Assembly (NCBI RefSeq): GCF_023721795.1
Contig: NZ_JAMQYE010000001.1
Coordinates: forward strand, 868,001-932,000
Length of the DNA stretch: 64,000 bases
Origin: Zeimonas sediminis
GTDB taxonomy: Bacteria; Pseudomonadota; Gammaproteobacteria; Burkholderiales; Burkholderiaceae_E
Reading direction: 5' to 3'
The notes under the pieces: generated by a model
The model's database searches: none
Seen by the model: only the letters and a program-made list of their open reading frames with translations
Told to the model about the DNA's origin: nothing
In this document: positions 1,551 through 46,565 of the stretch, piece after piece
How the letters are laid out: each line of letters starts with the position of its first letter
Position numbering within the stretch: position 1 is the stretch's first letter
Program-made: the position numbers and the translations under genes

Positions 1551-1636
1551 TTCCCGTTCGATCCGGCGCCGGTCCGTGTCTGGCGGCCCGGCCGGCGAAC
1601 CGGGCGCCTCGGCAGTCGAGGCGCCGCGGCGGCCGA

Positions 1637-3763
1637 TCAGCCTTCCGGCTGGCGGGCCGCGTCGTCGGCGGCGGCGGCCTTCATCGACAGGCGCAGGCGG
1701 CCCTTGTCGTCGGCCTCGATCACCTTGACGCGAACGACCTGGCCTTCCTTGACGTAGTCGGAGACCTGGTTGACGCGCTCGTTGGCGATCTGCGACACGT
1801 GCAGCAGGCCGTCGCGGCCCGGCAGCACCTGCACGATGGCGCCGAAGTCGAGGATCTTCAGGACCGTGCCTTCGTAGATCGCGCCGATCTCGACCTCGGC
1901 GGTGAGGTCCTCGATCATCTTCTGCGCGCGCTTGGCAGCGGCGCTGTCGACCGCGGCGATCGTGATCGAGCCGTCGTCCTGGATGTCGATCTGGGTGCCG
2001 GTGGTCTCGGTGATCTGGCGGATCGTGGCGCCGCCCTTGCCGATCACGTCGCGGATCCGCTCGGGGTTGATCTTCATCGTGTACATGCGCGGCGCGTAGT
2101 CGGAGAGCTCCTCGCGGGCTCCGCCGATCGCCTGCTGCATCAGGCCCAGGATGTGCATGCGGCCTTCGCGCGCCTGCGCCATGGCGACCTGCATGATCTC
2201 CTTGGTGATGCCCTGGATCTTGATGTCCATCTGCAGCGCGGTGATGCCCTGCGCGGTGCCTGCCACCTTGAAGTCCATGTCGCCGAGGTGGTCCTCGTCG
2301 CCCAGGATGTCCGACAGGACGGCGAAGCGGTTGCCTTCCTTGATCAGGCCCATGGCCACGCCGGCCACGTGGCTCTTGACCGGCACGCCGGCGTCCATCA
2401 GCGCCAGGCAGCCGCCGCAGACGGAAGCCATCGACGAGGAGCCGTTCGATTCGGTGATCTCGGAAACCACGCGCAGCGAGTAGGCGAACTCCTCGGCCGT
2501 GGGCAGCAGCGGACGGATCGCGCGCTTGGCCAGGTTGCCGTGGCCGACCTCGCGCCGCTTGGGCGTTCCGAAGCGACCGGTTTCGCCGGTGGCGAACGGC
2601 GGCATGTTGTAGTTGAACATGAAGCGATCGCGGTACTCGCCGTTGATCGCGTCGATGATCTGCTCGTCGCGCGAGGTGCCCAGCGTGGCCACGACCACCG
2701 CCTGCGTCTCGCCGCGGGTGAACAGCGCCGACCCGTGAGCGCGCGGCAGCAGGCCGGTGCGGATCGAGATCGGGCGGATCGTGCGGGTGTCGCGGCCGTC
2801 GATGCGCGGCTGCCCCGACAGGATCTGGTGACGCACCAGCTTGGCCTGCAGATCGAACAGGATGTTGCCGAGCTCGTTCTTGTCCGGGGCGGGCTGCCCC
2901 GCGGCCTCGGCCTCGGCGACGACCTTCTCGATGGCAGCCTGCTCGACCTCGCGAATGCGGGCCACGCGCTGCTGCTTGTTGCGAATGGCGTAGGCCTCGG
3001 CGAACCCGGCTTCGGCCAGCTCGGTCACGCGGGCGATCAGCGCCTCGTTCTTCGCCGGCGGCGTCCACTCCATCTCGGGCTTGCCGCCCATCTCGACCAG
3101 CTCGTTGATCGCGTCGATCGCGACCTGCATCTGCTCGTGACCGAAGGCGATCGCGCCGACCATCACGTCCTCGGGCAGCTCGTGCGCCTCGGACTCGACC
3201 ATCAGCACGGCAGCGTCGGTGCCGGCCACGACCAGGTCGAGCCTGGACGAGGCCATCTGGGTGGCGCTCGGGTTCAGCACGTACTGGCCGTCGACGTAGC
3301 CGACGCGGCAGGCGCCGATCGGGCCGGCGAAGGGCACGCCGGAGATCGCAAGCGCGGCCGAGGTGCCGATCATGGCCGGGATGTCGCTGTCGACTTCCGG
3401 GTTGCTCGACAGCACCTGGGCGATGACCTGGACCTCGTTGTAGAAGCCTTCGGGGAACAGCGGGCGGATCGGCCGGTCGATCAGGCGATCGATCAGGATC
3501 TCGCGCTCGGTGGGCCGGCCCTCGCGCTTGAAGAAGCCGCCCGGGATCCGGCCGGCCGCGTAGAACTTCTCGACGTAGTCGACGGTCAGCGGGAAGAAGT
3601 CCTGGCCCGGCTTGGCGCTCTTGGCGACCGAGACCGCCACCAGCACGACGGTGTCGTCCATCGTGACCAGGACGGCGCCGCTGGCCTGGCGGGCGATCTC
3701 GCCCGTTTCGAGGGTGACGGTGTTGTCACCCCACTTGAATGTCTTTCTTGCGATATCGAACAC
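1637..3763 (-). CDS. pnp: Polyribonucleotide nucleotidyltransferase (PNPase)
   Basis: Phosphorolytic 3'-5' exoribonuclease of RNA turnover and a degradosome component. The 708 residues match the usual ~710. Two RNase PH-like halves are separated by an alpha-helical region; KH and S1 domains follow ([18 protein letters not shown] is the S1 core near the C terminus). I chose a GTG start at 3763, because the frame then reads [11 protein letters not shown] as in family members and an AAGGAA Shine-Dalgarno sits 5 nt upstream. The frame stays open for 22 more codons upstream, but those residues do not resemble PNPase. It is directly downstream of rpsO, the usual order, with a terminator between them. 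E. coli pnp autoregulates through its 5' leader; I cannot show that here. Confidence 0.97.
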
Positions 3764-5657: not shown

Positions 5658-7208
5658 TCAGACCCCGCCGCGCTGAGGGTCCACGCGGACCGTGTCCGAC
5701 TTCAGGCGATTCAGCGCGCTCAGGTAGGCCTTGGCCGACGCGACGATGATGTCGGGATCGGCGCCCACGCCGTTCACGATCCGGCCCGCCTTGGCCAGCC
5801 GCACCGTGACCTCGCCCTGCGACTCGGTCCCGGTCGTGATCGCGTTGACCGAGTAGAGCATCAGCTCGGCGCCGCTGCCCGCCTTGGCCTCGATCGCCTT
5901 GAAGGTGGCGTCGACCGGTCCATTGCCCTCTGCCTCGGACGTGGTCTCTGCCCCGTCGATCGACATCGTGATGCGGGCATGCGGGCGCTCGCCGGTTTCC
6001 GAGCCTTGCGACATCGAGACGAGCTGGTAGTGCTCGTCGACCTGGTGGTGGGCCGCCTGCTCGGACACCAGCGCGTGGATGTCCTCGTCGAAGATCTCGG
6101 CCTTGCGGTCGGCCAGGTCCTTGAAGCGCTGGAAGGCCTCGTTGACCTCCTGCTCGCTGTCGAGCTGGATGCCCAGTTCCTGCAGGCGCTGCTTGAACGC
6201 GTTGCGGCCCGACAGCTTGCCCAGCACGATCTTGTTCGCGCTCCAGCCCACGTCTTCGGCGCGCATGATCTCGTAGGTGTCGCGCTGCTTGAGCACGCCG
6301 TCCTGGTGGATGCCCGAGGCGTGCGCGAAGGCGTTGGCGCCCACCACCGCCTTGTTCGGCTGCACCGGGAAGCCGGTGATGCTCGAGACCAGCTTGGAGG
6401 CCGGCACGATCTGGGTGGTGTCGATGCCCACTTCGAGGTCGAAGTAGTCGCGCCGGGTCTTGACCGCCATGACCACCTCCTCGAGCGAGGTGTTGCCCGC
6501 CCGCTCGCCCAGCCCGTTGATCGTGCACTCGACCTGCCGGGCGCCGCCGATCATCACGCCGGCCAGCGAATTGGCCACCGCCATGCCGAGGTCGTTGTGG
6601 CAGTGGACCGACCAGACCGCCTTGTCCGAGTTCGGGATGCGGGTGCGCAGCGTGAGCACCAGGTTGCCGAACAGCTCGGGCACGCCGTAGCCGACCGTGT
6701 CGGCGATGTTGATCGTGCGCGCGCCTTCCTCGATCGCGGTCTCGAGCACGCGGCACAGGAAGTCCATGTCCGACCGGCTGCCGTCCTCGGGCGAGAACTC
6801 GACGTTGTCGGTGAAGTTGCGGGCGTAGCGCACCGCCTGGCGGATCTGCTCGTGCACCTGGTCCGGCGTCATCCGCAGCTTCTTCTCCATGTGGAGCGCC
6901 GAGGTGGCGATGAAGGTGTGGATCCGCGCCGACTTCGCGCCCTTCAGCGCCTCGGCGGCGCGCGCGATGTCGCGGTCGTTGGCCCGGGCGAGCGAGCAGA
7001 CCGTGGAATCGGTGATCGCGTCGGCGATCGCCCTGACCGCCTCGAAATCGCCGTTCGACGACGCGGCGAAGCCCGCCTCGATCACGTCGACCCGCAGCTT
7101 CTCCAGTTGCTTGGCGATGCGAAGCTTCTCTTCCTTGGTCATCGAGGCGCCGGGGCTCTGCTCGCCGTCGCGCAAGGTCGTGTCGAAGATGATGAGTTTG
7201 TCGGCCAT
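5658..7208 (-). CDS. leuA: 2-isopropylmalate synthase
   Basis: First committed enzyme of leucine biosynthesis: condenses acetyl-CoA with 2-oxoisovalerate. It has 516 residues, the length of the long LeuA form. The catalytic TIM barrel starts with [12 protein letters not shown] (residues 9-20), and metal ligands lie in the HCHNDLG motif near residue 202. The C-terminal third is the leucine-sensing regulatory domain ([20 protein letters not shown] onward), so feedback inhibition is expected. The ATG at 7208 has an AGGAG ribosome site 8 nt upstream. A leucine leader peptide lies 81 nt upstream, giving a second layer of control by transcription or translation attenuation. Confidence 0.97.
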
Positions 7209-7289
7209 GGAAGATGCTCCTATGCTTCGCCGCCCGCCTTGTGGACGGGAGACAGGGTGCTGCTACGGGGGGATGGGGGAAAGGGGGTG
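7209..7289 (-). promoter_or_regulatory. leuA leader: C-rich, G-poor tract after leader peptide
   Basis: The RNA between the leader peptide stop and the leuA ribosome site is very rich in C and poor in G at first (three C-runs of five or six within about 20 nt at 7267-7288), then becomes mixed. No hairpin with a U-run is visible. Such unstructured C-rich RNA resembles a Rho loading site, so leuA attenuation may be Rho-dependent or translational rather than by an intrinsic terminator. This is an inference from composition only. Confidence 0.4.
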
Positions 7290-7403
7290 TCAGCGCGCTA
7301 GGCGCAGTAGCAGGCCGAGCGCGGCTAGCGCGCGCAGGCTGCCGGGCTTCCGATTGCCGGAAACCGGGGAGAGCTGGAAGAAGGGAGCCGAAACGGTCGC
7401 CAT
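7290..7403 (-). CDS. leuL: Leucine leader peptide (leuL-type)
   Basis: A 37-codon frame upstream of leuA encodes a peptide ending LRALAALGLLLRLAR. Seven of its last 15 codons are Leu, and three of them are CTA, a codon that is scarce in the neighbouring genes. This is the hallmark of an attenuator leader peptide: ribosome stalling when charged tRNA-Leu is short. A perfect 9-bp inverted repeat (7293-7301 with 7325-7333) spans these Leu codons, so the stalled ribosome would cover or release it. A promoter (TTGCGA, 17-nt spacer, TATATT) ends 8 nt before the ATG, so the peptide seems to be translated from a leaderless RNA. It is too short for normal gene finding. Confidence 0.75.
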   Translation of the reverse strand: MATVSAPFFQLSPVSGNRKPGSLRALAALGLLLRLAR

Positions 7404-7410
7404 GCACCGC

Positions 7411-7439
7411 AATATATCGGCTTCGGGAACGGTTCGCAA
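7411..7439 (-). promoter_or_regulatory. Promoter of leuL-leuA
   Basis: The -35 TTGCGA (7439-7434) and -10 TATATT (7416-7411) are separated by 17 nt on the minus strand. The predicted RNA start (about 7404) is practically the A of the leader-peptide ATG at 7403, leaving no room for a Shine-Dalgarno. Confidence 0.6.
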
Positions 7440-7461
7440 CACGCCTCGACTCATCGCGCGC

Positions 7462-8028
7462 TCAGGTCCGCGGCAGCGTGACCCCGGTCTGTCCCTGGTA
7501 CTTCCCGCCGCGGTCCTTGTACGAGGTTTCGCAGACCTCGTCGGACTCGAGGAACAGCATCTGCGCGCAGCCCTCGCCGGCGTAGATCTTCGCCGGCAGC
7601 GGCGTGGTGTTCGAGAACTCCAGCGTGACGTGCCCTTCCCATTCCGGCTCGAGCGGCGTCACGTTCACGATGATGCCGCAGCGCGCGTAGGTGGACTTGC
7701 CCAGGCACACGGTGAGCACGTTGCGCGGAATGCGGAAGTACTCGACCGTGCGGGCCAGCGCGAACGAGTTCGGCGGAATGATGCAGATCGGGCCCTTGAA
7801 GTCGACGAAGGACTTCTCGTCGAAGGCCTTGGGGTCGACGATCGTCGAATTGATGTTCGTGAAGATCTTGAACTCGTCGGCGCAGCGCACGTCGTAGCCG
7901 TAGCTCGAGGTGCCGTAGGAAACGATCTTGCGGCCGTCGATCTGGCGGACCTGGCCCGGCTCGAAGGGCTCGATCATCTGCTGCTCGGCCGCCATCCGGC
8001 GGATCCATTTGTCGGCCTTGATCGTCAT
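7462..8028 (-). CDS. dcd: dCTP deaminase
   Basis: Deaminates dCTP to dUTP, feeding dTMP synthesis. It has 188 residues, as expected for the trimeric Dcd family. Recognisable blocks are [20 protein letters not shown], the FVDFKG region, and [20 protein letters not shown], which carries the catalytic Glu. It has its own promoter (-10 TAGAAT at 8076-8071), with a leader of about 36 nt containing CCAGGATT before the ATG. In related genomes it lies near mrp and metG; here the aldehyde oxidoreductase and transporter genes intervene. Confidence 0.96.
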
Positions 8029-8070
8029 GGGGAATCCTGGGGTTCGGCCTGCGCCGCTGCGAAAGCGGGA

Positions 8071-8076
8071 ATTCTA
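8071..8076 (-). promoter_or_regulatory. -10 element of the dcd promoter
   Basis: TAGAAT on the minus strand, 43 nt before the dcd ATG. The -35 region is not clearly consensus. Confidence 0.4.
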
Positions 8077-8121
8077 CCCGCCGCCCGAGCGCGTGGTCCC
8101 CGCCCTGCCCCGGCCCGCGCC

Positions 8122-8427
8122 CTAGCCCCCGCCCCGCTGCGTATGGCGATCGAAGCGGGTGATCCAGCCGCGGGCCTCGGCGGCGCGCTCCTGCGGATAG
8201 TCGAATCGCACGTCGAGCTGTGGCATGCGCAGCAGGGCGACGACCCGCGGCGGCATGACCTCGACCTGCACGCGCATCGGCCAGCCGCCGGCGTCGAGCC
8301 TGAACTCGCCGCCCCCCCCGCCTGCAGGTTCCAGGCGAATGTCCTGCCCGCCCGTGAACTCGCGCAGCCAGCGTTCGATGTCGGCCGGCGTGCAGGCCAT
8401 CACGCGGCGATCGCCGAAGAAGGGCAT
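8122..8427 (-). CDS. Uncharacterised small protein, last gene of the aldehyde oxidoreductase operon
   Basis: A 101-residue protein I do not recognise. It starts MPFFGDRRVMACTPADIERW, has a Gly run near residue 38, no signal peptide and no membrane segment; the middle alternates beta-like segments (MRVQVEVMPPRVVALLRMP) and it ends in a basic, Gly-rich tail. It lies 40 nt downstream of the MoaD-like gene on the same strand, so it probably belongs to the oxidoreductase operon and may help mature or bind the enzyme. That role is inferred from position only. Confidence 0.6.
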   Translation of the reverse strand: MPFFGDRRVMACTPADIERWLREFTGGQDIRLEPAGGGGGEFRLDAGGWPMRVQVEVMPPRVVALLRMPQLDVRFDYPQERAAEARGWITRFDRHTQRGGG

Positions 8428-8467
8428 GGGAGGGGAAACGTCCGGAACGCGGCGGGAAACGGGCAGC

Positions 8468-8734
8468 TCAACCGCCCGCGATCGGCGGCCAGATCGCCAG
8501 CGTCTCGCCGTCGGTGAGCACCCGCGCGGCCCGGGCGTCCTTCTCCACGTAGCGACCGTCGACCAGCACTAGGTGAACGAGCTTGCCCGGCAGGTTGAAA
8601 CGGTCGACGACCTGCTGGACGGTCGTGCCCTCGGGCACCTCGAGCTCGATCTGGTTTCCCTGGCGCCGCCGCCCGTCGAGCTCGTCGGGCAGGTGGTCTG
8701 AGAGCATCGCGAACAGCTTGAAGGTGATGCGCAT
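8468..8734 (-). CDS. MoaD/ThiS-family sulfur carrier protein
   Basis: An 88-residue ubiquitin-like protein with the C-terminal Gly-Gly (WPPIAGG) that is adenylated and thiocarboxylated in sulfur carriers. MoaD supplies the dithiolene sulfur of molybdopterin. Its place between the FAD-subunit gene and the small unknown gene of a tungsten aldehyde oxidoreductase operon suggests a dedicated MoaD for the bis-pterin tungsten cofactor. The residues LFAMLSDHLP and VVDRFNLP match the family pattern. A ThiS-like role is less likely given the neighbours. Confidence 0.85.
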   Translation of the reverse strand: MRITFKLFAMLSDHLPDELDGRRRQGNQIELEVPEGTTVQQVVDRFNLPGKLVHLVLVDGRYVEKDARAARVLTDGETLAIWPPIAGG

Positions 8735-8792
8735 CGGTCTGGCTGAAGAGGTGGCTTCTGGGGGCGGCTGGCTGGCGGGCGGGCGCCGCGTG

Positions 8793-10070
8793 TCAGTGCT
8801 TCATCGTGCCCCGGGCGGGCCCCTGCCACTGCTCCTGGGCCTGGGCGCTGGCCAGGTAGGCCTCCATCAGGCGCGTGGGGTCCTTCAGCAACTCGTCCTT
8901 CCAGGCGCCGAGTTTCACGCCGTTCTCGACCAGGTTGCGCAACACGCCGACGTGCTCGGTCATGCCGAGGCTGTTGGCCCCGACCATCACGTCGCCGTCG
9001 AACTCGAGCCGCAGGTAGCGATAGTTCCTTTCGTCGACCAGTTCGGCGTGGTCGCCGCCGGGCACGCCCTGCCAGTTGCCGAACGAGGTGGAGATCAGCC
9101 CGAGCGTGTCGAGCACGTTGATCTGGGTGACGCCGCGGGACACCGCGCGGCGGCCCGCCATGTTCATCGCCGCAACGTAGGCCTGGTCGACCGCGTTGGG
9201 CTGGATCGCCGACACGATGGTCTTGCCGCTGACCGGGTCGTAGGCCTCGGCGCAGTCGCCCGCCGCGTAGACCCCTTCGACCGAGGTCATCTGGCGCTCA
9301 TCGACCAGCACGCCCTGCAGGCACTTGATCGGCGAGCCCGACAGGAAGCCGATGCTGGGCTTCACGCCGGTGGCCTGGATGACCAGGTCGAATTCCTCGC
9401 TCTTGCCGTTCGAGAAGTTCGCGCGGATCTTGTCGCCGGGCTCGAGCGATTCGACCCGCGTGCCGGTGTAGACGGTCACGCCCTTCTCGACGCACCAGTT
9501 GCGGATCATCGTGCCGGCCGCCGGCCCCATCATCCGCGGGACCATCCGGTCGCCCATCTCGACGACGGTGAGCTTCACGCCGCGCAGCGCGAGCGCCTCC
9601 AGGATGATGCAGCCGATGAAGCCCGCGCCCATCTGCAGCACCCGCGCGCCCTTGCCCGCCAGCTGCGTGATGTTGCGCGCGTCGTGCAGCGTCCAGCAGG
9701 GATGCACGAAGGGAGACTCGAGGCCAGGGATCGGCGGGCTGACCGGGTAGGAGCCGCTCGCGATCAGCGCGCGGTCGTAGTCGAGCTGGGTGCCGTCGGA
9801 AAGCGCGACCTTGCGGGCCTCGGTGTCGATGCCGGTGACCCGCCCGGTGACCTGGCGTATGGCGAGGCGATCGAAGTGGTCTTCGTCCTTTCGCAGCAAG
9901 GTGCCGCGCTCGTCGATGTTGCCGATCAGCAGGTAGGGAATCGCCATCCGCGAATACGGCGGATGCGGTTCGCTGCCGATCATCACGATCTCGTCCTTCG
10001 GCCGGTGCTTGCGCAGGGTCTCGGCGGCCACCACGCCGGCCGGTCCGTTGCCGATGATCACGTGCTTCAT
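8793..10070 (-). CDS. aorC: FAD-dependent NAD(P)H oxidoreductase subunit of aldehyde oxidoreductase (AorC-like)
   Basis: Pyridine-nucleotide-disulfide-type flavoprotein, 425 residues from the ATG at 10070. It begins KHVIIGNGPAGVVAAETLRK (FAD-binding GxGxxG), has an internal NAD site before EMGDRMVPRM, and the second FAD motif YAAGDCAEAYD. In the tungsten aldehyde oxidoreductase of Aromatoleum aromaticum the equivalent AorC carries FAD and passes electrons to NAD+. I prefer the start at 10070 to one 10 codons upstream because the latter falls beside the U-run of a terminator; GAGGA stands 9 nt before 10070. It lies downstream of two hairpins that separate it from aorB. Confidence 0.9.
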   Translation of the reverse strand: MKHVIIGNGPAGVVAAETLRKHRPKDEIVMIGSEPHPPYSRMAIPYLLIGNIDERGTLLRKDEDHFDRLAIRQVTGRVTGIDTEARKVALSDGTQLDYDRALIASGSYPVSPPIPGLESPFVHPCWTLHDARNITQLAGKGARVLQMGAGFIGCIILEALALRGVKLTVVEMGDRMVPRMMGPAAGTMIRNWCVEKGVTVYTGTRVESLEPGDKIRANFSNGKSEEFDLVIQATGVKPSIGFLSGSPIKCLQGVLVDERQMTSVEGVYAAGDCAEAYDPVSGKTIVSAIQPNAVDQAYVAAMNMAGRRAVSRGVTQINVLDTLGLISTSFGNWQGVPGGDHAELVDERNYRYLRLEFDGDVMVGANSLGMTEHVGVLRNLVENGVKLGAWKDELLKDPTRLMEAYLASAQAQEQWQGPARGTMKH

Positions 10071-10104
10071 CTGCGGGGTCCTCGTGCTCGTTCGATCCAT
10101 CAGG

Positions 10105-10130
10105 AAAAAGGGGCGACCCGAGGTCGCCCC
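10105..10130 (-). terminator. Intrinsic terminator between aorB and aorC
   Basis: On the minus strand a perfect 9-bp stem (arms 10122-10130 and 10110-10118) with a 3-nt loop is followed by five U's. It lies 48 nt past the aorB stop codon and 34 nt before the aorC start, inside the operon. It should lower transcription of aorC and the downstream genes relative to aorA and aorB. Confidence 0.8.
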
Positions 10131-10148
10131 TGCATCGGCAATGCCTCG

Positions 10149-10170
10149 CCCCGGGCCTGCCGGCCCGGGG
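10149..10170 (-). terminator. GC-only hairpin directly after aorB
   Basis: A perfect 9-bp stem made only of G and C with a four-base loop, starting 8 nt after the aorB stop codon and without a U-run. It may protect the 3' end of the aorAB message from exonucleases or assist the terminator just downstream. Confidence 0.6.
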
Positions 10171-10178
10171 GGCGCGGC

Positions 10179-12026
10179 TCAGAGGCCGAGGCGCGCGCGG
10201 GTTTCGGGCTTCAGGCGACCTTCGTCGTCCCAGCCGCGAATCGCGTAGTACTCGGGGATCATCTTGTCGATGCCGCTGACCAGGCCCTTGGCGGGTCCGG
10301 TCTTGGCAGGCTCGGTCTTCAGGCGCTTGGGCAGGTCGTCGTCTTTCCGGGTGAAGCCCGCGCGGTTGTTGAAGTCGCGCTCGAGGTTCCAGATCCGCTC
10401 GCCGATGTCGTTCAGGTTCTCCATCGTGAAATCCGGCCCGCAGGCGGCGGCCAGCTGCGGCTGCAGGTCGGCCAGGGTCCACGCGAAAGTGGTGAACACG
10501 CAGGTGCCCGACGAGTCGAACACGGCGGTCGCGTCCTGGAAGGCCTTGACCAGCTCGGGCTTGCCCTCGGTGGTGAGCGGATCGGTCTTGACCGGGATGC
10601 CGAGGATCTCGGAGGCGACCGTGTAGGAGCGCAGGTGGCAGGCACCGCGGTTGGAGGTGGCGTAGGTGAGACCCATGCCCTGGATGCCGCGCGAGTCGTA
10701 GGCCGGGAACTCCTGGCCCTTGACCGACATCGACAGGTCGGGGTGGCCGTACTTGGCGGTGAGCCGCTTGGAGCCCAGCGCGATCTCCTTGCCGAAACCC
10801 TCGCCACGCGCGGTCATCTCGACCAGCTTGCAGAGCGCCTCGGCCGAGCCGAACGGCGCCTCGATGCCGACCTGCTCCTTGGTGAGCACGCCCATCTCGT
10901 AGAGCTCGTAGACCGCGCCGATGGTCGCGCCGAACGAGATCGGGTCCATGCCGTCTTCGTTGCAGATCGTGTTGGCGTACTGCAGGGCCTCCAGGTCGTT
11001 GACGCCGGGCGCGGCGCCGAGTGCCCAGGCGGCTTCGTACTCGAGGCCGCCGGTGGCGCCCCAGTACTCGGGCTTGTTGACCACCGAGAAGTGGGTCTGG
11101 TCGATCTTGGAAATGCGGCCGCAGGCGATAGTGCAGCCGAAGCAGGCCTGGTTGGTGACCAGCTGCGCCTTGCCGTCGCTCGGGCGCTTCTCCATCATCG
11201 CCTCGGCCGAGATGCGGCTGGCGCCCTCGAACTGCGAGTCGCGATGGTTGCGGGTGGGCAACGCGCCGGTCTCGTTGATCACGTTCATCAGGACCTGGGT
11301 GCCGTAGGTGGGCAGGCCCTGGCCGGTGACCGGGTGATCGTGGAGAACCTTCTTCTTCTCCATGGTGACCTTCATGAAGGCCTTCGGGTCGTGGATGTTG
11401 CCCACGCCCTTGGTGCCCCGCACCGCGATCGCCTTCAGGTTCTTGGAGCCCGCCACCGCGCCCACGCCGGAGCGGCCGGCAGCCCGGTGCAGATCGTTGA
11501 CGATGCAGGCGAACAGGACCTGGTTCTCGCCGGCGCGGCCGATCGAGGACACCCGGGTCAGCGGATCCTGCGACTCCTTCTTCAGGATTTCCTCGGTCTG
11601 CCAGACCGTCTTGCCCCACAGGTGCGAGGCGTCCTTCAGCTCGGCCTTGTCGTCGACGATCGACAGGTAGACCGGCTTCGGAGACTTGCCCTCGAAGACG
11701 ATCATGTCCCAGCCGGCCATCTTGAGCTCGGCCCCCCAGTAGCCGCCCGAATTCGAGCAGGCGATCGCGCCGGTGAGCGGGCCCTTGGTGATGACCGAGT
11801 AGCGGCCGCCGGTCGAGGCCATCGTGCCGGTCAGCGGGCCGGTGGCCCAGATGATCTTGTTGTCCGGCGAAAGCGGGTCGACCTTGGGGTCGACCTCTTC
11901 GACGAAATACTTGGTGGCCAGGCCTCGCTGGCCCAGGTACTGACGGGCCCAGTCCATGCGCAGAGGCTCGGACGTGCAGGTGCCCTTGGTGAGATTGACG
12001 CGGAGGATCTTTCCAGCCCAGGTCAT
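10179..12026 (-). CDS. aorB: Tungsten-containing aldehyde ferredoxin oxidoreductase, catalytic subunit (AorB-like)
   Basis: Oxidises aldehydes to acids, and can run in reverse, at a bis-pterin tungsten cofactor. It has 615 residues, as in the AOR family. The N-terminal domain with GGRYSVITKGPLTG binds the pterin, CFGCTIAC (about residues 293-300) gives three ligands of the 4Fe-4S cluster, and Cys in FDSSGTC (about 503) should be the fourth. It is preceded by a four-cluster ferredoxin-like gene and followed by a flavoprotein gene, the arrangement of the A. aromaticum AorABC enzyme, rather than the single-subunit archaeal type. The start at 12026 has AAGGAG upstream. Substrate range (aromatic or aliphatic aldehydes) cannot be read from the sequence. 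Confidence 0.93.
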   Translation of the reverse strand: MTWAGKILRVNLTKGTCTSEPLRMDWARQYLGQRGLATKYFVEEVDPKVDPLSPDNKIIWATGPLTGTMASTGGRYSVITKGPLTGAIACSNSGGYWGAELKMAGWDMIVFEGKSPKPVYLSIVDDKAELKDASHLWGKTVWQTEEILKKESQDPLTRVSSIGRAGENQVLFACIVNDLHRAAGRSGVGAVAGSKNLKAIAVRGTKGVGNIHDPKAFMKVTMEKKKVLHDHPVTGQGLPTYGTQVLMNVINETGALPTRNHRDSQFEGASRISAEAMMEKRPSDGKAQLVTNQACFGCTIACGRISKIDQTHFSVVNKPEYWGATGGLEYEAAWALGAAPGVNDLEALQYANTICNEDGMDPISFGATIGAVYELYEMGVLTKEQVGIEAPFGSAEALCKLVEMTARGEGFGKEIALGSKRLTAKYGHPDLSMSVKGQEFPAYDSRGIQGMGLTYATSNRGACHLRSYTVASEILGIPVKTDPLTTEGKPELVKAFQDATAVFDSSGTCVFTTFAWTLADLQPQLAAACGPDFTMENLNDIGERIWNLERDFNNRAGFTRKDDDLPKRLKTEPAKTGPAKGLVSGIDKMIPEYYAIRGWDDEGRLKPETRARLGL

Positions 12027-12063
12027 CGTTGACTCCTTGTTGGCAGTGTCGGGGCGGGCGGGA

Positions 12064-12537
12064 TCAGGCCGCCGGCTGGTTGCCGAGCTTGTCGGCCCAC
12101 TGCTGCATGCGATCGAGACCGGTCCAGTTGGCGTCGACGTAGGTGATCGCGCCGGTGGGGCAGGCCTCGGCGCAGGCAGGCTCTCCGCCGCAGAGGTCGC
12201 ACTTCTGGACCTTGCCGGTCTCCTGCACGTAGTTCACCGTGCCGAACGGACAGGCGATCGTGCAGACCTTGCAGCCGACGCAGACGTCCTCGAGCACGAC
12301 CTTGGCGCCGGTGCCGGCGTCGAGCTTGATCGCCTCGACCGGACAGGCGTGCAGGCACCAGGCCTCGTCGCACTGGGTACAGGTGTAGGGAACCTTGCGG
12401 CCGGTGTGGTGGAAGTCGAAGACCTTGATCCGCGACTTCGCGGTCGAGAAAGTGCCGTAGTTCTCGTAACTGCAGGCCATCTCGCACTGCAGGCAGCCAG
12501 TGCACTTGTCAGGGTTGATGTGCAGCGATTTCTGCAT
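12064..12537 (-). CDS. aorA: Four-cluster ferredoxin-like subunit of aldehyde oxidoreductase (AorA-like)
   Basis: Electron-transfer subunit of 157 residues with four cysteine clusters: CTGCLQCEMAC, CTQCDEAWCLHAC, CVGCKVCTIAC and CDLCGGEPACAEAC. That is enough for four 4Fe-4S centres, as in DMSO-reductase-B-type polyferredoxins. It would pass electrons from the tungsten subunit to the FAD subunit. The ATG at 12537 has a strong GGAGGA ribosome site; 19 further codons open upstream are not family-like. It is separated from aorB by only 37 nt and is the first gene of the aor operon, with a candidate promoter at 12607-12635. Confidence 0.92.
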   Translation of the reverse strand: MQKSLHINPDKCTGCLQCEMACSYENYGTFSTAKSRIKVFDFHHTGRKVPYTCTQCDEAWCLHACPVEAIKLDAGTGAKVVLEDVCVGCKVCTIACPFGTVNYVQETGKVQKCDLCGGEPACAEACPTGAITYVDANWTGLDRMQQWADKLGNQPAA

Positions 12538-12606
12538 GTCTCCTCCGCGAAGAAACGGGAGCCTCCGGACGCTTGTCGGTCCCAGACCGTACATCCGGGC
12601 AGGCGA

Positions 12607-12635
12607 AACCTATGTCCGTGAAAGCATACCTTCAA
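12607..12635 (-). promoter_or_regulatory. Candidate promoter of the aor operon
   Basis: TTGAAG (12635-12630), 17-nt spacer, TAGGTT (12612-12607) on the minus strand, about 70 nt before the aorA start. The -10 match is weak, so an activator may be needed. Confidence 0.35.
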
Positions 12636-12654
12636 CCGCGGCGCGATGCACCGG

Positions 12655-13452
12655 TCAGGAGCGATCCGCTCGGAATTCGGTACGGCCAAGCGTCAGCACG
12701 CCACGCCCGTCGGCGGTGAAGGCCTGCTCGATCGGCGCGCCGTAGGCCTGCGACAGCACCTGCGGGGCGAGCAACTCGCTGACCGGGCCTGCCAGGATGC
12801 CCCCCCCGGGCTGGTACAGCAGTGCCTTCGAGCCGCAGCGCAGCGCGTGGTTGGGATCGTGCGTCGAGTAGACGATGCCGAGCCCGTCGGCGGCCAGCGC
12901 CGACAGCGTGTCCAGCACCCTGCCCTGGTTGCCGAAGTCCAGGCTGGCGGCCGGCTCGTCGAGGATCAGCGCACGCGACTGCTGTGCCAGCGCGCGGGCG
13001 ATCGCCGCCAGTTGCCGCTCGCCGCCCGACATCCGGGACAGCAGACGGTCGCGGAAGCGGGCCAGGCCGAGCCGGTCCAGGGCCCGCTCCACCGCCTGCC
13101 GGTCGGCGGCGCCGGGCGCCGAGCCGAGCGGCAGGCGGCCGATCCGGCCGAGCAGCACGTAGTGGAAGACGTCGAGGTCGAAGGCGGTGGCCGGCTGCTG
13201 CGGCACCCAGGCCGCCTCGGCCGCCAGCTGGCGCGGCGACAGCGCGTCCAGCGCGCGGCCGCTCCAGCGGACCTGGCCTGCGATCGGCGGCACCGTGCCC
13301 AGCAAGGTACGGAACAGTGTGCTCTTGCCTGCGCCGTTGGGCCCGAGCACGACCAGCACCTCGCCAGCGCCTAGCGTGAAGTCGACCGGCCCGGTCAAGG
13401 CCCTGCCCCGGTAGCCGAAGCGAAGGCCGGCGGCGCGCAGCAGCTCAGTCAT
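12655..13452 (-). CDS. FecCD-type ABC transporter ATP-binding protein (metal chelate / oxoanion uptake)
   Basis: 265-residue ATPase of the iron-siderophore/cobalamin/molybdate family. Walker A GPNGAGKS, Q-loop in VPQQPATAF, signature MSGGERQLAAIARAL, Walker B LILDEPAASLD and the His switch STHDPNHAL are all present. It pairs with the permease gene 29 nt upstream. The family includes BtuD, FepC and the Haemophilus MolC protein, which transports molybdate and tungstate. The tungsten enzyme operon directly downstream on the same strand favours an oxoanion role, but the sequence alone does not decide. Confidence 0.9.
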   Translation of the reverse strand: MTELLRAAGLRFGYRGRALTGPVDFTLGAGEVLVVLGPNGAGKSTLFRTLLGTVPPIAGQVRWSGRALDALSPRQLAAEAAWVPQQPATAFDLDVFHYVLLGRIGRLPLGSAPGAADRQAVERALDRLGLARFRDRLLSRMSGGERQLAAIARALAQQSRALILDEPAASLDFGNQGRVLDTLSALAADGLGIVYSTHDPNHALRCGSKALLYQPGGGILAGPVSELLAPQVLSQAYGAPIEQAFTADGRGVLTLGRTEFRADRS

Positions 13453-13481
13453 CGCGCCCCTCGGTCATCGCACCCCTCGAC

Positions 13482-14489
13482 TCAGTCATCGCGGCGCCTG
13501 AGCATCAGGAAGAACAGGACCGGCGCCCCGATCAGCGCGGTCAGCACGCCCGGCGGCAATTCGGCCTGGCCGACGTTGCGGCCGAGCGTGTCGATCGCCA
13601 GCATCAGCAGCGCACCGAGCAGCATCGAGACCGGCAGCAGCCGCGCGAACGACGCGCCCACCAGCAGCCGTGCCGCATGCGGCACGACCAGGCCGATCCA
13701 GCCGATGATGCCGGCCGCCGCAACCGTGGCCGCGGTCAGCAGCGTGGCGCCGACCACCAAGGCAAGACGAAGCGCCTGCAGGCGGATGCCGAGGGCGCGC
13801 ACCTCGTCGTCGGAAAGCATCAGCGCGTCCGCTCGCCAGCGCATCAACAGCAGCGGCAGGAGCCCGAGCAGGCCGCAGGCGGCAAGCCCGAGGAGATCGG
13901 CCATGCCGATCGACGCAAAGCTTCCCAGAAGCCAGAAGGTGATCGCGGGCAGCTGCGTGTACGGATCGGCGAGCGTCTTGATCAGCGCCACCACCGAGCC
14001 GAGCATGCTGCCGACCGCGATGCCGACCAGCACCAGGCTGAGCGTGCGGTCGCGCAAGGGAACTGCGGAACCGACCGCGTAGACGACTGCCACCGCCGCC
14101 AGGCCGCCGGCGAAGGCCGCGCCCTGGATCGCCCAGGCGGTCCAGCCGAGGAAGATGCCGAGCACCGCGCCCACCGCCGACCCGGCGGACACGCCGAGAA
14201 GGTCGGGCGCCGCAAGCGGATTGCGGAACACCGACTGCAGCGCGACGCCCGAAGCGGCGAGTCCCGCGCCGACCAGCACGGCCGCGAGCACCCGCGGCCC
14301 GCGAATCTGCCAGAGCACCGTGTCGGCCATCGGCGGCAAGTCGGCCGGCGCCCCACCGAGCCGCTCGGCGAGCAGCCGCAGCACGTCGGACAATGAAAGC
14401 GGAAAGCTCCCGCTGCCCAGCGCGAAGAGCGTGGTGGCGGCCAGCGCGAGAGCGAGTCCGGCAGGCAGGAGCCAGGAGGATTGCCTCAT
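13482..14489 (-). CDS. FecCD-family ABC transporter permease
   Basis: Integral membrane permease of 335 residues from the ATG at 14489, the normal FecCD length; the 81 codons open upstream are not hydrophobic and are rejected. The family landmark RGPRVLAAVLVGAGLAASGV is followed by LQSVFRNPLAAPDLLGVSAG, and about ten hydrophobic segments are visible. It ends with GVLTALIGAPVLFFLMLRRR, as usual. No periplasmic binding-protein gene is adjacent, so the ligand partner must be elsewhere. Candidate substrates are ferric siderophore, cobalamin, or molybdate/tungstate as for MolB. Confidence 0.9.
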   Translation of the reverse strand: MRQSSWLLPAGLALALAATTLFALGSGSFPLSLSDVLRLLAERLGGAPADLPPMADTVLWQIRGPRVLAAVLVGAGLAASGVALQSVFRNPLAAPDLLGVSAGSAVGAVLGIFLGWTAWAIQGAAFAGGLAAVAVVYAVGSAVPLRDRTLSLVLVGIAVGSMLGSVVALIKTLADPYTQLPAITFWLLGSFASIGMADLLGLAACGLLGLLPLLLMRWRADALMLSDDEVRALGIRLQALRLALVVGATLLTAATVAAAGIIGWIGLVVPHAARLLVGASFARLLPVSMLLGALLMLAIDTLGRNVGQAELPPGVLTALIGAPVLFFLMLRRRDD

Positions 14490-14730
14490 CGGTCGGGCAA
14501 TCGCGGGCAGGCGTGCGGCCTGGGGGGCTCGAAGCGTGCGCTCATCGCGATGACAAGGGAGACCGGAAAGGCCAGGAGGGTCGAGGAAGGATTCTAGCGA
14601 GCATCCGCGGGCAAGCGCCTGGGCGCCGGCGCAACCTGCGCGCGGGCGATACCGGCCAGAGAGCGGAGCATTCCGTCGCGCAGGCGCCGCCTGGACCAGG
14701 GCCGCCCGGTGCGGGCGCGCCCCGCCAGGC

Positions 14731-14853
14731 AAAAAAAACCGGACGTCGGTAGGCGGGAGCCTTCCTTCGCCCGGCGAGGCGGAGACAACCGATGAAGTCG
14801 CTCTCTATCGCTTCGAAGGGCGTGCCGCTTCGGGCCAGCCCTTACGAACAAAT
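14731..14853 (-). ncRNA. Candidate structured small RNA or leader
   Basis: On the minus strand a possible promoter (TTCCCA, 17-nt spacer, TAGGAT, ending near 14854) is followed by about 115 nt containing an AAGGGC/GCCCTT stem and a CGAT/ATCG stem, and ending in a small stem (ACCG/CGGT) with eight U's at 14738-14731. It does not match any RNA family I can recall with confidence, including 6S, SRP RNA or cobalamin riboswitch. It lies between mrp and the ABC permease and could be a free sRNA or a premature stop in a leader. Confidence 0.35.
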
Positions 14854-14880
14854 CCTACGCCTGCAGCCGGGTCTTGGGAA

Positions 14881-14905
14881 CCGCCCGATCGGGGGATCGG
14901 GGCGG
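14881..14905 (-). terminator. Hairpin after mrp
   Basis: Arms 14881-14890 and 14895-14905 form a 10-bp GC-rich stem with one bulged base and a four-base loop, 56 nt beyond the mrp stop. The U-run is poor, so it is a weak or Rho-assisted terminator at best. Confidence 0.45.
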
Positions 14906-14960
14906 CAAAGGCGGGCGACCGCCGCCGTTCGTCGAAAAACCGGAACGCCCCGCCGGCCGC

Positions 14961-16049
14961 TCAGGTGTTCTGCACGACGATCGACGGGAACTTGAGGCTC
15001 ATGTCGCGGGCCTTCTCGGCGATGCGCACCGCGATCCGGCGCGCGATCTTGCGGTAGATCGCGGCGACCTCGCCGTCCGGATCGGCCACGACCGTCGGCC
15101 TGCCTGAGTCGGCCTGCTCGCGGATCCGGATGTCGAGCGGCAGCCCGCCCAGGTACTCGACGTCGTACTCCTTGGCCATCCGCTCGCCGCCGCCCTGGCC
15201 GAAGATGTGCTCGGCGTGGCCGCAGTTCGAGCAAACGTGGATCGCCATGTTCTCGACGATGCCCAGGATCGGGATGCCGACCTTCTCGAACATCTTCAGG
15301 CCCTTGCGGGCGTCGAGCAGCGCGATGTCCTGCGGCGTGGTCACGATGACCGCGCCGGTCACCGGGATCTTCTGCGCCAGCGTCAGGTGGATGTCGCCGG
15401 TGCCGGGGGGCATGTCGACGAGCAGGTAGTCGAGGTCGCGCCAGTTCGTGTCGCGCAGCAGCTGCTCGAGCGCCTGGGTGACCATCGGCCCGCGCCAGAC
15501 CATCGGCGTGTCGGGATCGATCATGAAGCCGATCGAGCTCGCCTGGATGCCGTGGCCGGTCATCGGCTCGAGCGTCTTGCCGTCGCGCGACTCGGGCCGG
15601 CCGGTGATGCCCAGCATGGTCGGCTGCGACGGGCCGTAGATGTCGGCATCGAGCATGCCGACCGACGCGCCCTCGGCGGCCAGCGCCAGCGCCAGGTTCA
15701 CCGCGGTAGTGCTCTTGCCCACGCCGCCCTTGCCCGAGGCGATCGCAATGATGTTCTTGACGTTGGGCAGCGTCTTCACGCCGCGCTGCACCGAGTGCGC
15801 GACGATCTTCTGGTACACGTTGGCGCTGACGTTGCCGGCGCCCGGCAGCGCGCGCAGCTTGGCGATGACCTCGCGGCGGATCGGATCGATCTGGCTCTTC
15901 GCCGGGTAGCCGAGCTCGACGTCGACGCTGATGTCGGCGCCGTCGACGCGGATGTTGCGGGCCGACTTGCCCGACACCAGGTCCTTGCCGGTGTTGGGAT
16001 CGACGATCTGGGACAGCGCCGACTTCACGTCGGCTTCGGACACGGACAT
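14961..16049 (-). CDS. apbC: Mrp/NBP35-type Fe-S cluster carrier ATPase
   Basis: Cytosolic P-loop ATPase that delivers Fe-S clusters to apo-enzymes. It has 362 residues: an N-terminal MIP18/DUF59 domain (about 1-90), a deviant Walker A GKGGVGKST near residue 110, DMPPGTGD near 210, and the cluster-binding CSNCGH near 275. Its neighbour metG is divergent. Aldehyde oxidoreductase and other Fe-S proteins encoded nearby are possible clients, but this is a housekeeping gene in Burkholderiales. A -10-like TAAACT lies about 85 nt upstream (16136-16131). Confidence 0.95.
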   Translation of the reverse strand: MSVSEADVKSALSQIVDPNTGKDLVSGKSARNIRVDGADISVDVELGYPAKSQIDPIRREVIAKLRALPGAGNVSANVYQKIVAHSVQRGVKTLPNVKNIIAIASGKGGVGKSTTAVNLALALAAEGASVGMLDADIYGPSQPTMLGITGRPESRDGKTLEPMTGHGIQASSIGFMIDPDTPMVWRGPMVTQALEQLLRDTNWRDLDYLLVDMPPGTGDIHLTLAQKIPVTGAVIVTTPQDIALLDARKGLKMFEKVGIPILGIVENMAIHVCSNCGHAEHIFGQGGGERMAKEYDVEYLGGLPLDIRIREQADSGRPTVVADPDGEVAAIYRKIARRIAVRIAEKARDMSLKFPSIVVQNT

Positions 16050-16362
16050 TTCTGCGCGACTCCTTCGGATCCTGGCGCGCCTTCCCGGCGCCCGCGGGAT
16101 CGGGCGACCGGCTGCGCGAATCTGGCGCGGAGTTTAGCCCCTTCGGCCCGCGCCTGCCGCCGGGGCGGCCGAATCACCCGATCCGCTCATGGGATTTGGC
16201 GTCCGGCCCTCGTGGAATTCGCCGTCTGCGCTAACGTGTCGCGCCGCCGGCCCTGACGGGGTCCGCGACCTCGCGAGGGCCGCCGGAACGACCGAGACTC
16301 GACCAGGACGAACCCCGCGCCGCCGGGCCCGTGGAAACCGGCCCGTTTGCTAAGATTTCGCG
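16050..16362. other. 313-bp divergent intergenic region, mrp and metG promoters
   Basis: No gene seen. Toward mrp there is a TAAACT element (minus, 16136-16131). Toward metG there is TAAGAT (16351-16356), whose last base is 7 nt from the metG ATG. The centre is GC-rich without recognisable repeats. Confidence 0.5.
16351..16356 (+). promoter_or_regulatory. -10 element very close to the metG start
   Basis: TAAGAT sits 7 nt before the metG ATG, and no Shine-Dalgarno is present. Transcription would begin at or near the ATG, implying a leaderless message. The -35 region is not consensus. Confidence 0.4.
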
Positions 16363-18534
16363 ATGAATCCGCGCAATCTCTTCGTCACCACCGCCCTTCC
16401 CTACGCCAACGGCGCCTTCCACATCGGCCACATCATGGAGTACATCCAGGCCGACATCTGGGTGAGGTTCCAGCGGATGCGGGGGGCCACCGTGCGCTTC
16501 GTCTGCGCCGACGACGCCCACGGCGCGCCGATCATGATCGCGGCCGAGAAGGCCGGCAAGACGCCGCAGGAGTTCGTGGCCGGCATCGCCGCCGGGCGCC
16601 GCCAGTACCTGGACGGCTTCCACGTCGCCTTCGACCACTGGCACAGCACCGACTCGCCCGAGAACACCGAGCTGTCGCAGTCGATCTACCGCGGCCTGCG
16701 CGACCAGGGCCTGATCGACGTGCGCTCGGTCGAGCAGTTCTTCGACCCGGTCAAGGGCATGTTCCTGCCCGACCGCTACATCAAGGGCGAGTGCCCGAAG
16801 TGCGGGGCGAAGGACCAGTACGGCGACTCCTGCGAGGCATGCGGCGCGGTCTATGCGCCCACCGAACTGAAGAACCCGTTCTCGGCGCTGTCGGGCGCCA
16901 CGCCCGAGCTGCGGACCTCCGACCACTATTTCTTCCGGCTGTCGGACCCGCGCTGCGTGGCCTTCCTGCAGGAGTGGACCCGCTCGGCCGACCGGCACGG
17001 CCAGCCCCGGCTGCAGCCCGAAGTGCTGGCCAAGGCGCAGGAGTGGCTCGGCGAAGGGGCCACGCCCGACGAACCGGGCGGCGCCGCGGTCGGCGGCGGC
17101 AAGCTCGCCGACTGGGACATCTCGCGCGACGCGCCCTACTTCGGCATCGAGATTCCCGACGCGCCGGGCAAGTACTTCTACGTGTGGCTCGACGCGCCGA
17201 TCGGCTACCTGGCCTCGCTGAAGGCATGGTGCGCGAAGAACGGCGTCGACTTCGACGCGCTGATGGCCGACCCGACGCTCGAGCAGGTCCACTTCATCGG
17301 CAAGGACATCATCTACTTCCACGTGCTGTTCTGGCCGGCCACGCTGCACTTCGCCGGCCGCAAGGCGCCCGACCGGGTCAACGTGCACGGCTTCATCACG
17401 GTGAGCGGCGAGAAGATGAGCAAGAGCCGCGGCACCGGCATCTCGCCGCTGCGCTACCTCGAGCTCGGCATGAACCCCGAGTGGCTGCGCTACTACCTGG
17501 CCGCCAAGCTGAACAGCCGGGTCGAGGACGTCGACTTCAATCCCGACGACTTCGTCGCCCGGGTCAATTCCGACCTGGTCGGCAAGCTGATCAACATCGC
17601 GAGCCGCTGCGCCGGCTTCGTGGTCAAGCGTTTCGACGGCCGGCTGGGTCCGGTCGACGACGCCGCGCACCAGGCCTTCGCCGGCGGCTGGGCGGGCGCC
17701 GACGCGGTGGCCGCGCTGTACGACGGCCGCGACTACGGCAAGGCGATCCGCGAGATCATGGCCTGCGCCGACCGGGTCAACGAGTACATCGACGCGCGCA
17801 AGCCCTGGGAGCTGGCCAAGGATCCTGCGCGCGCCAGCGAGCTGCACACCGTCTGCTCGACCGCGCTGCGGGCCTTCGCCGACCTGGCGCTGATGCTCGC
17901 GCCCATCCTGCCGGCCACCGCCGAGCGGGTCGCGGCGATGCTGCGCCTGCCGGCGACCGACTGGTCGGCGATCGGCAAGCCGCTGCCCGAGGGCCACGCG
18001 ATCGAGCCCTACCAGCACCTGATGACCCGGGTCGAGCCGAAGCAGCTCGACGCGCTGTTCGAGCTGCCGGAAGCGGGCGGCGCAGCCGGCGGCGACAAGC
18101 CCGCGGCGGCGAAGGCCGCTGCCGGCGAGAAGAAGGCGGCCGCCGGGAAACCGGCGGCCTCGCAGGCCGGCGCCAGGGCTGCCGTCCCCGAGGGCACGAT
18201 CTCGATCGACGACTTCGGCAAGGTCGACATGCGGATCGCGAAGATCGTCGCCTGCGAGGCGGTCGAGGGCTCGGACAAGCTGCTGCGGCTCACGCTGGAC
18301 GTCGGCGAGGAGCGCACCCGCAACGTGTTCTCCGGGATCCGATCGGCCTACTCGCCCGAGCAACTGGTCGGCCGGTACACGGTCGTGGTCGCCAACCTCG
18401 CCCCGCGCAAGATGAAGTTCGGGGTGTCCGAAGGCATGGTGCTGTCGGCCGGCTGGGACGACCCGGCAAAGGGCCGCGGCCTGTTCCTGCTCGACGTGCA
18501 CGAGGGCGCGCAGCCCGGCATGAAGGTGAAATGA
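16363..18534 (+). CDS. metG: Methionyl-tRNA synthetase
   Basis: Charges tRNA-Met. It has 723 residues with the class I HIGH motif in [12 protein letters not shown] (about 15-26), a zinc knuckle made of CPKCGA and CEACGA (about 145-165), the KMSKS loop EKMSKSRG (about 350), and a C-terminal EMAP II-like tRNA-binding domain (about 610-723, [17 protein letters not shown]). An Ala/Lys-rich linker (about 565-605) joins the catalytic part to this domain. No ribosome site is visible before the ATG. Confidence 0.97.
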
Positions 18535-46500: not shown

Positions 46501-46527
46501 AAAAAAGGGGCGACCCTCGGCCGCCCC
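46501..46527 (-). terminator. Terminator of the SWIB gene
   Basis: A 6-bp GC stem (46522-46527 with 46507-46512, 9-nt loop that can pair further) followed on the minus strand by six U's (46506-46501), 39 nt past the SWIB stop codon. Confidence 0.75.
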
Positions 46528-46565
46528 TCGCGCGATCGGGCGGCCTTCGCCGCCCGGCATCGCGA

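Follow-up and report, generated by a model that had tools for sequence, protein, structure and literature searches.

A recurrent hairpin between the filament and cap genes of aldehyde oxidoreductase operons as a candidate step in expression

Filaments of aldehyde oxidoreductase (AOR) conduct electrons as wires do and are each nucleated by one AorC. The A. aromaticum enzyme is a filament of AorAB protomers with one AorC as its cap; there are up to four AorAB per AorC in the purified enzyme, and the masses seen fit AorAB, AorABC and Aor(AB)2-4C, besides large amounts of free AorAB (PMC10413684; this and the other papers are cited for the parts of their text that were available). The preliminary description of the DNA studied here had given the same architecture, an AorAB filament with a single AorC, in agreement with that paper. 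The free AorAB was obtained with an AorA-tagged construct (PMC9295118), a point that weighs against the explanation favoured below.

The class of mechanism that we consider is already known, in the form of ratio-setting internal terminators and of decay hairpins. Thus, in clostridial ABC importers internal terminators with efficiencies of 20.7-96.1% set the subunit ratios (PMC9045158), and in puf and malEFG strong intercistronic hairpins, of which one operon may have several, leave the upstream segment more abundant through differential decay (PMC5927463). For aor operons, we found no description of a junction terminator in the open-licence literature; the word 'terminator' is absent from the main text of PMC10413684, PMC6365974 and PMC13328260, and the available part of PMC9765128 reports no aor expression.

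The window, by which we mean the whole 64,000-nucleotide stretch of DNA analysed, carries on its minus strand, in this order, aorA, aorB, aorC, aorD, a gene at the aorE position and a dCTP deaminase gene (Table 1). In PDB 8c0z, the structure of the A. aromaticum enzyme, chain C is the counterpart of AorA, chain A that of AorB and chain E that of AorC, and the AorA of the window has the C-terminal filament helix, with the stretch WTGLxxMxxWA; the three homologues in this order, together with the helix, identify the operon as class III (NAD-linked) WOR / AOR. Gene order and filament helix are shared with EbN1 AorABC(DE) (PDB 8c0z; PMC10413684, PMC6365974), as is a hairpin in the same gap, seen in locus L100, which must be EbN1 or a near strain because over 417 residues its AorC shows 100% identity with the 8c0z chain. 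Unlike the window's, the L100 hairpin, at -34 kcal/mol, has no U-tract, and EbN1 AorC is 58% identical to that of the window. With the family-consistent start of aorC (MKHVI...) at the ATG at 10070 and the end of aorB at 10179, the aorB-aorC gap of the window is 108 nt. No AorC match at E 1e-80 was obtained in the 17 same-genus genomes searched, and matches are present in several other genera of the family, which makes the distribution of the operon patchy, through loss or transfer. Directly upstream of aorA (12655-14492, minus strand) lie genes for an ABC ATPase and a FecCD-type permease, which matched corrinoid/hydroxamate-type importer models below cut-off only. The ORFs of at least 180 aa in 14200-18500 include no substrate-binding protein, and a putative tungstate role of this pair is conceivable.

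Table 1. Features of the aor operon and of its aorB-aorC gap (window coordinates)
Feature	Coordinates	Strand	Remarks
aorA, polyferredoxin-like subunit	12064..12537	-	Fer4 Pfam domains; PDB 8c0z_C, E 4e-82
aorB, tungsten-containing catalytic subunit	10179..12026	-	AFOR_N + AFOR_C; best PDB match 8c0z_A
Hairpin I, 9 G-C pairs, GGCA loop, no U-tract	10149..10170	-	8 nt past the aorB stop
Hairpin II, complete intrinsic-terminator motif, 9-10 bp, TCG loop, UUUUU	10105..10131	-	consensus scan and own definition
Shine-Dalgarno-like GAGGA of aorC	10079..10083	-	between U-tract and ATG; read from the sequence
aorC, FAD/NAD cap subunit	8793..10070	-	Pyr_redox_2; PDB 8c0z_E, E 9e-150
aorD, ThiS/MoaD-like putative maturation factor	8468..8734	-	Pfam ThiS; order as in PMC6365974 (available part)
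aorE-position gene	8122..8427	-	same-place homologues in many panel loci; no Pfam or NCBIfam match

Two hairpins in this gap, one of them a complete terminator whose U-run ends 34 nt before the aorC ATG, had been described beforehand, and the description proves correct to the base (10149-10170 and 10105-10131). Hairpin I consists of the arms CCCCGGGCC-GGCA-GGCCCGGGG (10170-10149). Hairpin II, with which it does not overlap in the fold of the window, has the stem GGGGCGACC-TCG-GGTCGCCCC (10130-10110; -18.2 kcal/mol, or -19.8 kcal/mol for 10 bp with the outer A-U pair), followed by TTTTT at 10109-10105; a stable G+C-rich hairpin followed by a U-run is the structure of an intrinsic (Rho-independent) terminator. 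The 34 nt that remain before the ATG include the ribosome-binding site. As a whole, the 108-nt gap folds with -58 kcal/mol (z = -2.32), which was equalled by 5 of 200 shuffles. A consensus scan of 9.5 kb ranked hairpin II, with the longest stem, first among 6 terminator-like sites, against a shuffle mean of 3.0, a count that is weak evidence by itself. By our own definition, hairpin II is the only coding-strand terminator in 7401-13500, and under stricter limits it is among six terminator sites in the whole 64 kb, all on the minus strand. Its exact stem has a single copy in the 3.86-Mb genome, which rules out a genome-wide repeat, and the wider motif GGGCGRCC/GGYCGCCC shows no enrichment (4 places vs 3 for the reversed control).

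For comparison, a panel of AorC-encoding loci was assembled from one scan of genome contigs (37 loci, of which L048 is not an aor operon) and from searches of relatives, the order, the family, the family of the genome nearest EbN1 and the phylum, several of these being samples of genomes. From these, 130 regions were extracted; 86 of the 95 genomes matched in one search are represented, the other 9 having been left out. The 180 sequences gave 177 usable aorB-aorC junctions, 157 of them distinct and 155 with a gap below 500 nt, nearly all from the window's order. Kept apart from these counts were L180 (206-nt gap, -24 kcal/mol hairpin, no U-tract) and L181 (8-nt gap), both from outside the order, and 16 plasmid-borne AOR relatives, all less than 60% identical. 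A compact hairpin in the long gaps was required to reach -12 kcal/mol or better; this definition and the larger panel supersede an early, looser terminator rule that gave 43 of 79 junctions.

In the panel, the aorB-aorC gap is bimodal in length, at most 31 nt and hairpin-free in 29 of the 155 operons and at least 43 nt in the other 126; its median is 84 nt, and the medians for A-B, C-D and D-E are 14, 11 and 20 nt. A compact hairpin stands in 124 of the 126 long gaps (124 of all 155 junctions), so that the hairpin which the preliminary description proposed to look for in the same gap of related operons, and whose absence it would have taken as contrary evidence, is there. U-tract terminators were found at 66 of 155 B-C junctions, where shuffles predict 10.5, as opposed to 0/149 at A-B (0.1 expected), 3/145 at C-D (1.3) and 1/86 at D-E (0.7), and the antisense strand of the B-C junctions has 14 against the 66 on the sense strand. 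It is mainly the excess of 66 over 10.5 that excludes a chance origin. Among gaps of 40-300 nt, terminators were counted in 65/125 B-C gaps vs 21/115 other codirectional gaps of the same loci (Fisher 5e-8), and hairpins of -18 kcal/mol or lower in 110/125 vs 36/115 (Fisher 3e-20); both P values ignore kinship among the loci and are inflated by it, and the control gaps, whose genes were called with a rough rule based on length and GC, may comprise some true operon ends. Hairpins of -18 or better occur in long gaps elsewhere too (C-D 10/28, D-E 7/13, A-B 2/11). With one operon per 90% AorB cluster (n = 72), 30 have a U-tract terminator, 26 a U-less hairpin, 15 none and 1 another arrangement, i.e., 56 of 72 carry a hairpin. 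A hairpin or terminator is kept at the same B-C junction in related operons, as would be expected of an internal terminator that sets stoichiometry. Some stems in other genomes, GAAGGCGGTT and CCCTCCCC, resemble what are presumably common terminator or repeat types, and one might regard the element as an inert GC-rich spacer or leftover of a repeat. Such inertness is scarcely credible given the large surplus relative to shuffles and to other gaps, the specificity of the U-tract terminators for one junction and the single occurrence of the exact window stem in its genome.

Given the structure, place, recurrence and junction specificity of the element, we consider it probable that in the window partial intrinsic termination in the aorB-aorC gap gives more aorAB mRNA than aorCDE mRNA; termination itself, the mRNA ratio and the protein ratio are what we infer. 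Transcription would begin upstream of aorA, and past aorB the RNA polymerase would encounter hairpin II and its UUUUU, where a fraction of the complexes would terminate. The released aorAB mRNA would have its 3' end shielded by hairpins I and II, while the remaining complexes would read through into aorCDE. The outcome, an excess of aorAB over aorCDE mRNA, would fit the several AorAB per AorC, and the gene order would serve this by parting AorA and AorB, which are needed in excess, from AorC, the cap, and from the maturation factors. Among described systems, the terminators of the ABC importers of cellulolytic Clostridia come close (PMC9045158): there, too, a stem-loop stands in the gap after the gene of the abundant subunit, variants with a full, a poor or almost no U-tract exist, and downstream genes of the same operon are lowered. 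Unlike here, they serve other genes in another phylum, and termination was measured there whereas we infer it.

Whether aorC could be transcribed separately bears directly on this. The element lies between co-directional genes of the operon with no sigma-70-like promoter behind it (by that consensus only), and across the panel the same consensus found a site in 0 of 125 junction regions, each beginning 60 nt within aorB and ending at the start of aorC, with 1.0 expected; the separate aorC promoter considered in the preliminary description thus did not appear in its sigma-70 form. Since there are only 34 nt before aorC, including the ribosome-binding site, and no such site, almost all aorC transcripts should run through the hairpin, unless a promoter of another type is used. 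The same facts speak against an ordinary full terminator that would make aorAB one unit and leave aorCDE to its own promoter, as does the description of the aor genes as one operon by the authors of PMC6365974. We regard this arrangement as very unlikely, even though the window terminator scores strong rather than weak (d score 21-31) and a near-identical stem with a U-run, GGGGCGGCC-GAG-GGTCGCCCC and TTTTTT at 46505-46529 on the minus strand, ends another gene in the window. That stem sits just behind the ORF 47162-46566, whose product resembles, below cut-offs, the C-terminal part of two topoisomerase/SWI-domain models; the aor stem type therefore stands at an ordinary gene end as well. Nor are the junction terminators in general weaker than gene-end ones (median d 4.8 vs -11, p = 0.09), so that a tuning of the former to weakness is unsupported by this comparison, which has only 16 gene-end terminators. 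With partial termination as the preferred reading, read-through might accordingly be small. Because the hairpin would lower aorD and aorE too, its purpose could also lie with those genes.

The U-tract is the less constant part of the element. Behind the stem, T is enriched in the 124 gaps (0.40-0.52 at +1 to +4 and 0.30-0.52 at +1 to +8, against a gap mean of 0.19), much more than A at the mirror-image positions upstream of the stem (0.19-0.28 at the equivalents of +1 to +4, 0.12-0.28 over eight). A U-tract is nevertheless absent from 59 of 125 hairpin-bearing junctions, EbN1 included, and 16 of 18 loci with an AorC at 80-100% identity to the 8c0z chain (L100-L117) lack a U-tract terminator by our own rule. 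The U-less hairpins are as stable as those with a U-tract (mean -24.8 vs -23.7 kcal/mol), reach p up to 0.05 against shuffles about as often (42/60 vs 49/65), and stand at a similar distance from the start codon (median from the 3' end of the stem 30 nt, lower quartile 19, vs 31 nt, lower quartile 23, in 65 U-tract gaps). On an AorB tree (FastTree, 154 rows), parsimony requires a minimum of 15 gains or losses of the hairpin (27.3 with shuffled labels) and of 23 for the U-tract (41.4 with shuffled labels). In a MAFFT alignment of 11 close hairpins the two arms are out of register. The conserved feature is a strong hairpin that separates the cap gene from the filament genes; the U-tract is optional.

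As the U-tract is not conserved, partial termination is not the general mechanism. The hairpins could instead act without terminating, by blocking 3'-5' exonucleases after cleavage in aorC so that aorAB outlives aorCDE, as in puf and malEFG. Nearly half of the junction hairpins, being U-less yet equally stable, suit such a decay barrier, and U-less differential-decay hairpins are common in E. coli operons (PMC5927463). The puf and malEFG hairpins lack a U-tract, and EbN1-type junctions are closer to them than is the window, where hairpin I alone would fit and hairpin II carries five U's; the T enrichment on the downstream side, too, would be needless for a pure barrier. We therefore judge a decay barrier unlikely as the explanation for the window, where partial termination is likeliest, and regard protection of the aorAB mRNA as the better guess for the U-less relatives, in which the hairpin would produce the same step. 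The direction of the step is the same by both mechanisms. The partial terminator proposed beforehand thus stands as regards its specificity for the B-C junction and the drop to be expected on the aorC side; it does not extend to the U-less EbN1 or to the 29 hairpin-free operons, and it would lower more than aorC and by a terminator that is not weak.

A further possibility is that read-through is regulated, for instance by tungsten supply, aldehyde or translation of the end of aorB. A second hairpin lies upstream in the window, and two non-overlapping hairpins are found in 50 of 115 B-C gaps of 60-250 nt, with 27.3 expected. The separate folding of hairpins I and II speaks against such a conditional attenuator, as does Rfam, which matched nothing in 7000-13500 of the window at E up to 1 and hence gave no known riboswitch or RNA family; we hold it to be highly improbable.

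Having proposed partial termination for the window, we would note that the hairpin is common but not obligatory, for the 29 gapless operons do without it and 28 of them still have the filament helix. Indeed, the AorA helix motif W(T/A)GxxxMxxW is equally frequent in gapped (115/119) and gapless (28/29) operons with a readable aorA, which rejects a link between hairpin and helix; the misses are L039, L080, L141, L146 and L073, of which L141 and L146 are seemingly out of frame and L073 has a disrupted reading. Translation may add to the step, since aorC forms a weaker anti-SD duplex than aorB does in operons with a U-tract (median -5.9 vs -8.8 kcal/mol), with a U-less hairpin (-5.9 vs -9.5) and with none (-3.7 vs -8.6); in the window itself it is -5.9 vs -8.0. 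A weak aorC ribosome-binding site marks 24 of 29 gapless operons vs 12 of 125 gapped ones, and among 13 independent pairs on average 10.3 agree with a weaker site in the gapless member, 0.1 oppose and 2.6 show no difference. The weakness may be a mere consequence of the loss of the gap and hence is no proof of compensation. In the short junctions (e.g., L015, L075, L093 and L162) aorC begins close to the aorB stop or inside it, in many of the 29 within 4 nt of it; together with the weak site, this is consistent with translational coupling.

Some bacterial group II introns favour sites behind terminators. Two junctions exceed 500 nt (L089 and L178), and in both, too, aorB is followed first by such a stem. 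That of L178 is a U-tract terminator (AAAGGGGATCGGCCAAGCCGGTCCCCTTT, TT), immediately after which comes a group II intron that contains a long ORF, at about 1590-3490 (Rfam RF02001, RF01998 and RF00029 above gathering scores); this suggests that the element is at least terminator-shaped. In L089, the strong stem precedes a first aorC-like ORF of about 418 codons, which takes up the 1369 nt that separate aorB from the aorC copy used in the counts. Tandem adjacent aorC-like genes occur in G358, G518, G540, G583, G460, G568 and G629 (the fetched ones being represented by L089, L167, L161, L156 and L152), the weaker copy being 48-55% identical to the query.

These comparisons permit a broader proposal, which we put forward tentatively and with some doubt. 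At one junction, interchangeable devices, namely a U-tract terminator, a U-less protective hairpin or, where the gap is lost, a poor aorC ribosome-binding site coupled to the aorB stop, might be kept by selection to hold AorAB above AorC and the maturation factors; the device would have switched many times across the tree, the step always keeping its direction, and the cap-to-body ratio, hence the length of the wire, would be encoded in the RNA. The point of interest is the recurrence of the element at the body-cap boundary of a redox filament. If the explanation is true, a changed or deleted hairpin should alter AorAB:AorC and, as a result, the length of the filament and its NAD coupling, and recombinant AOR production may unknowingly keep or lose the junction element.
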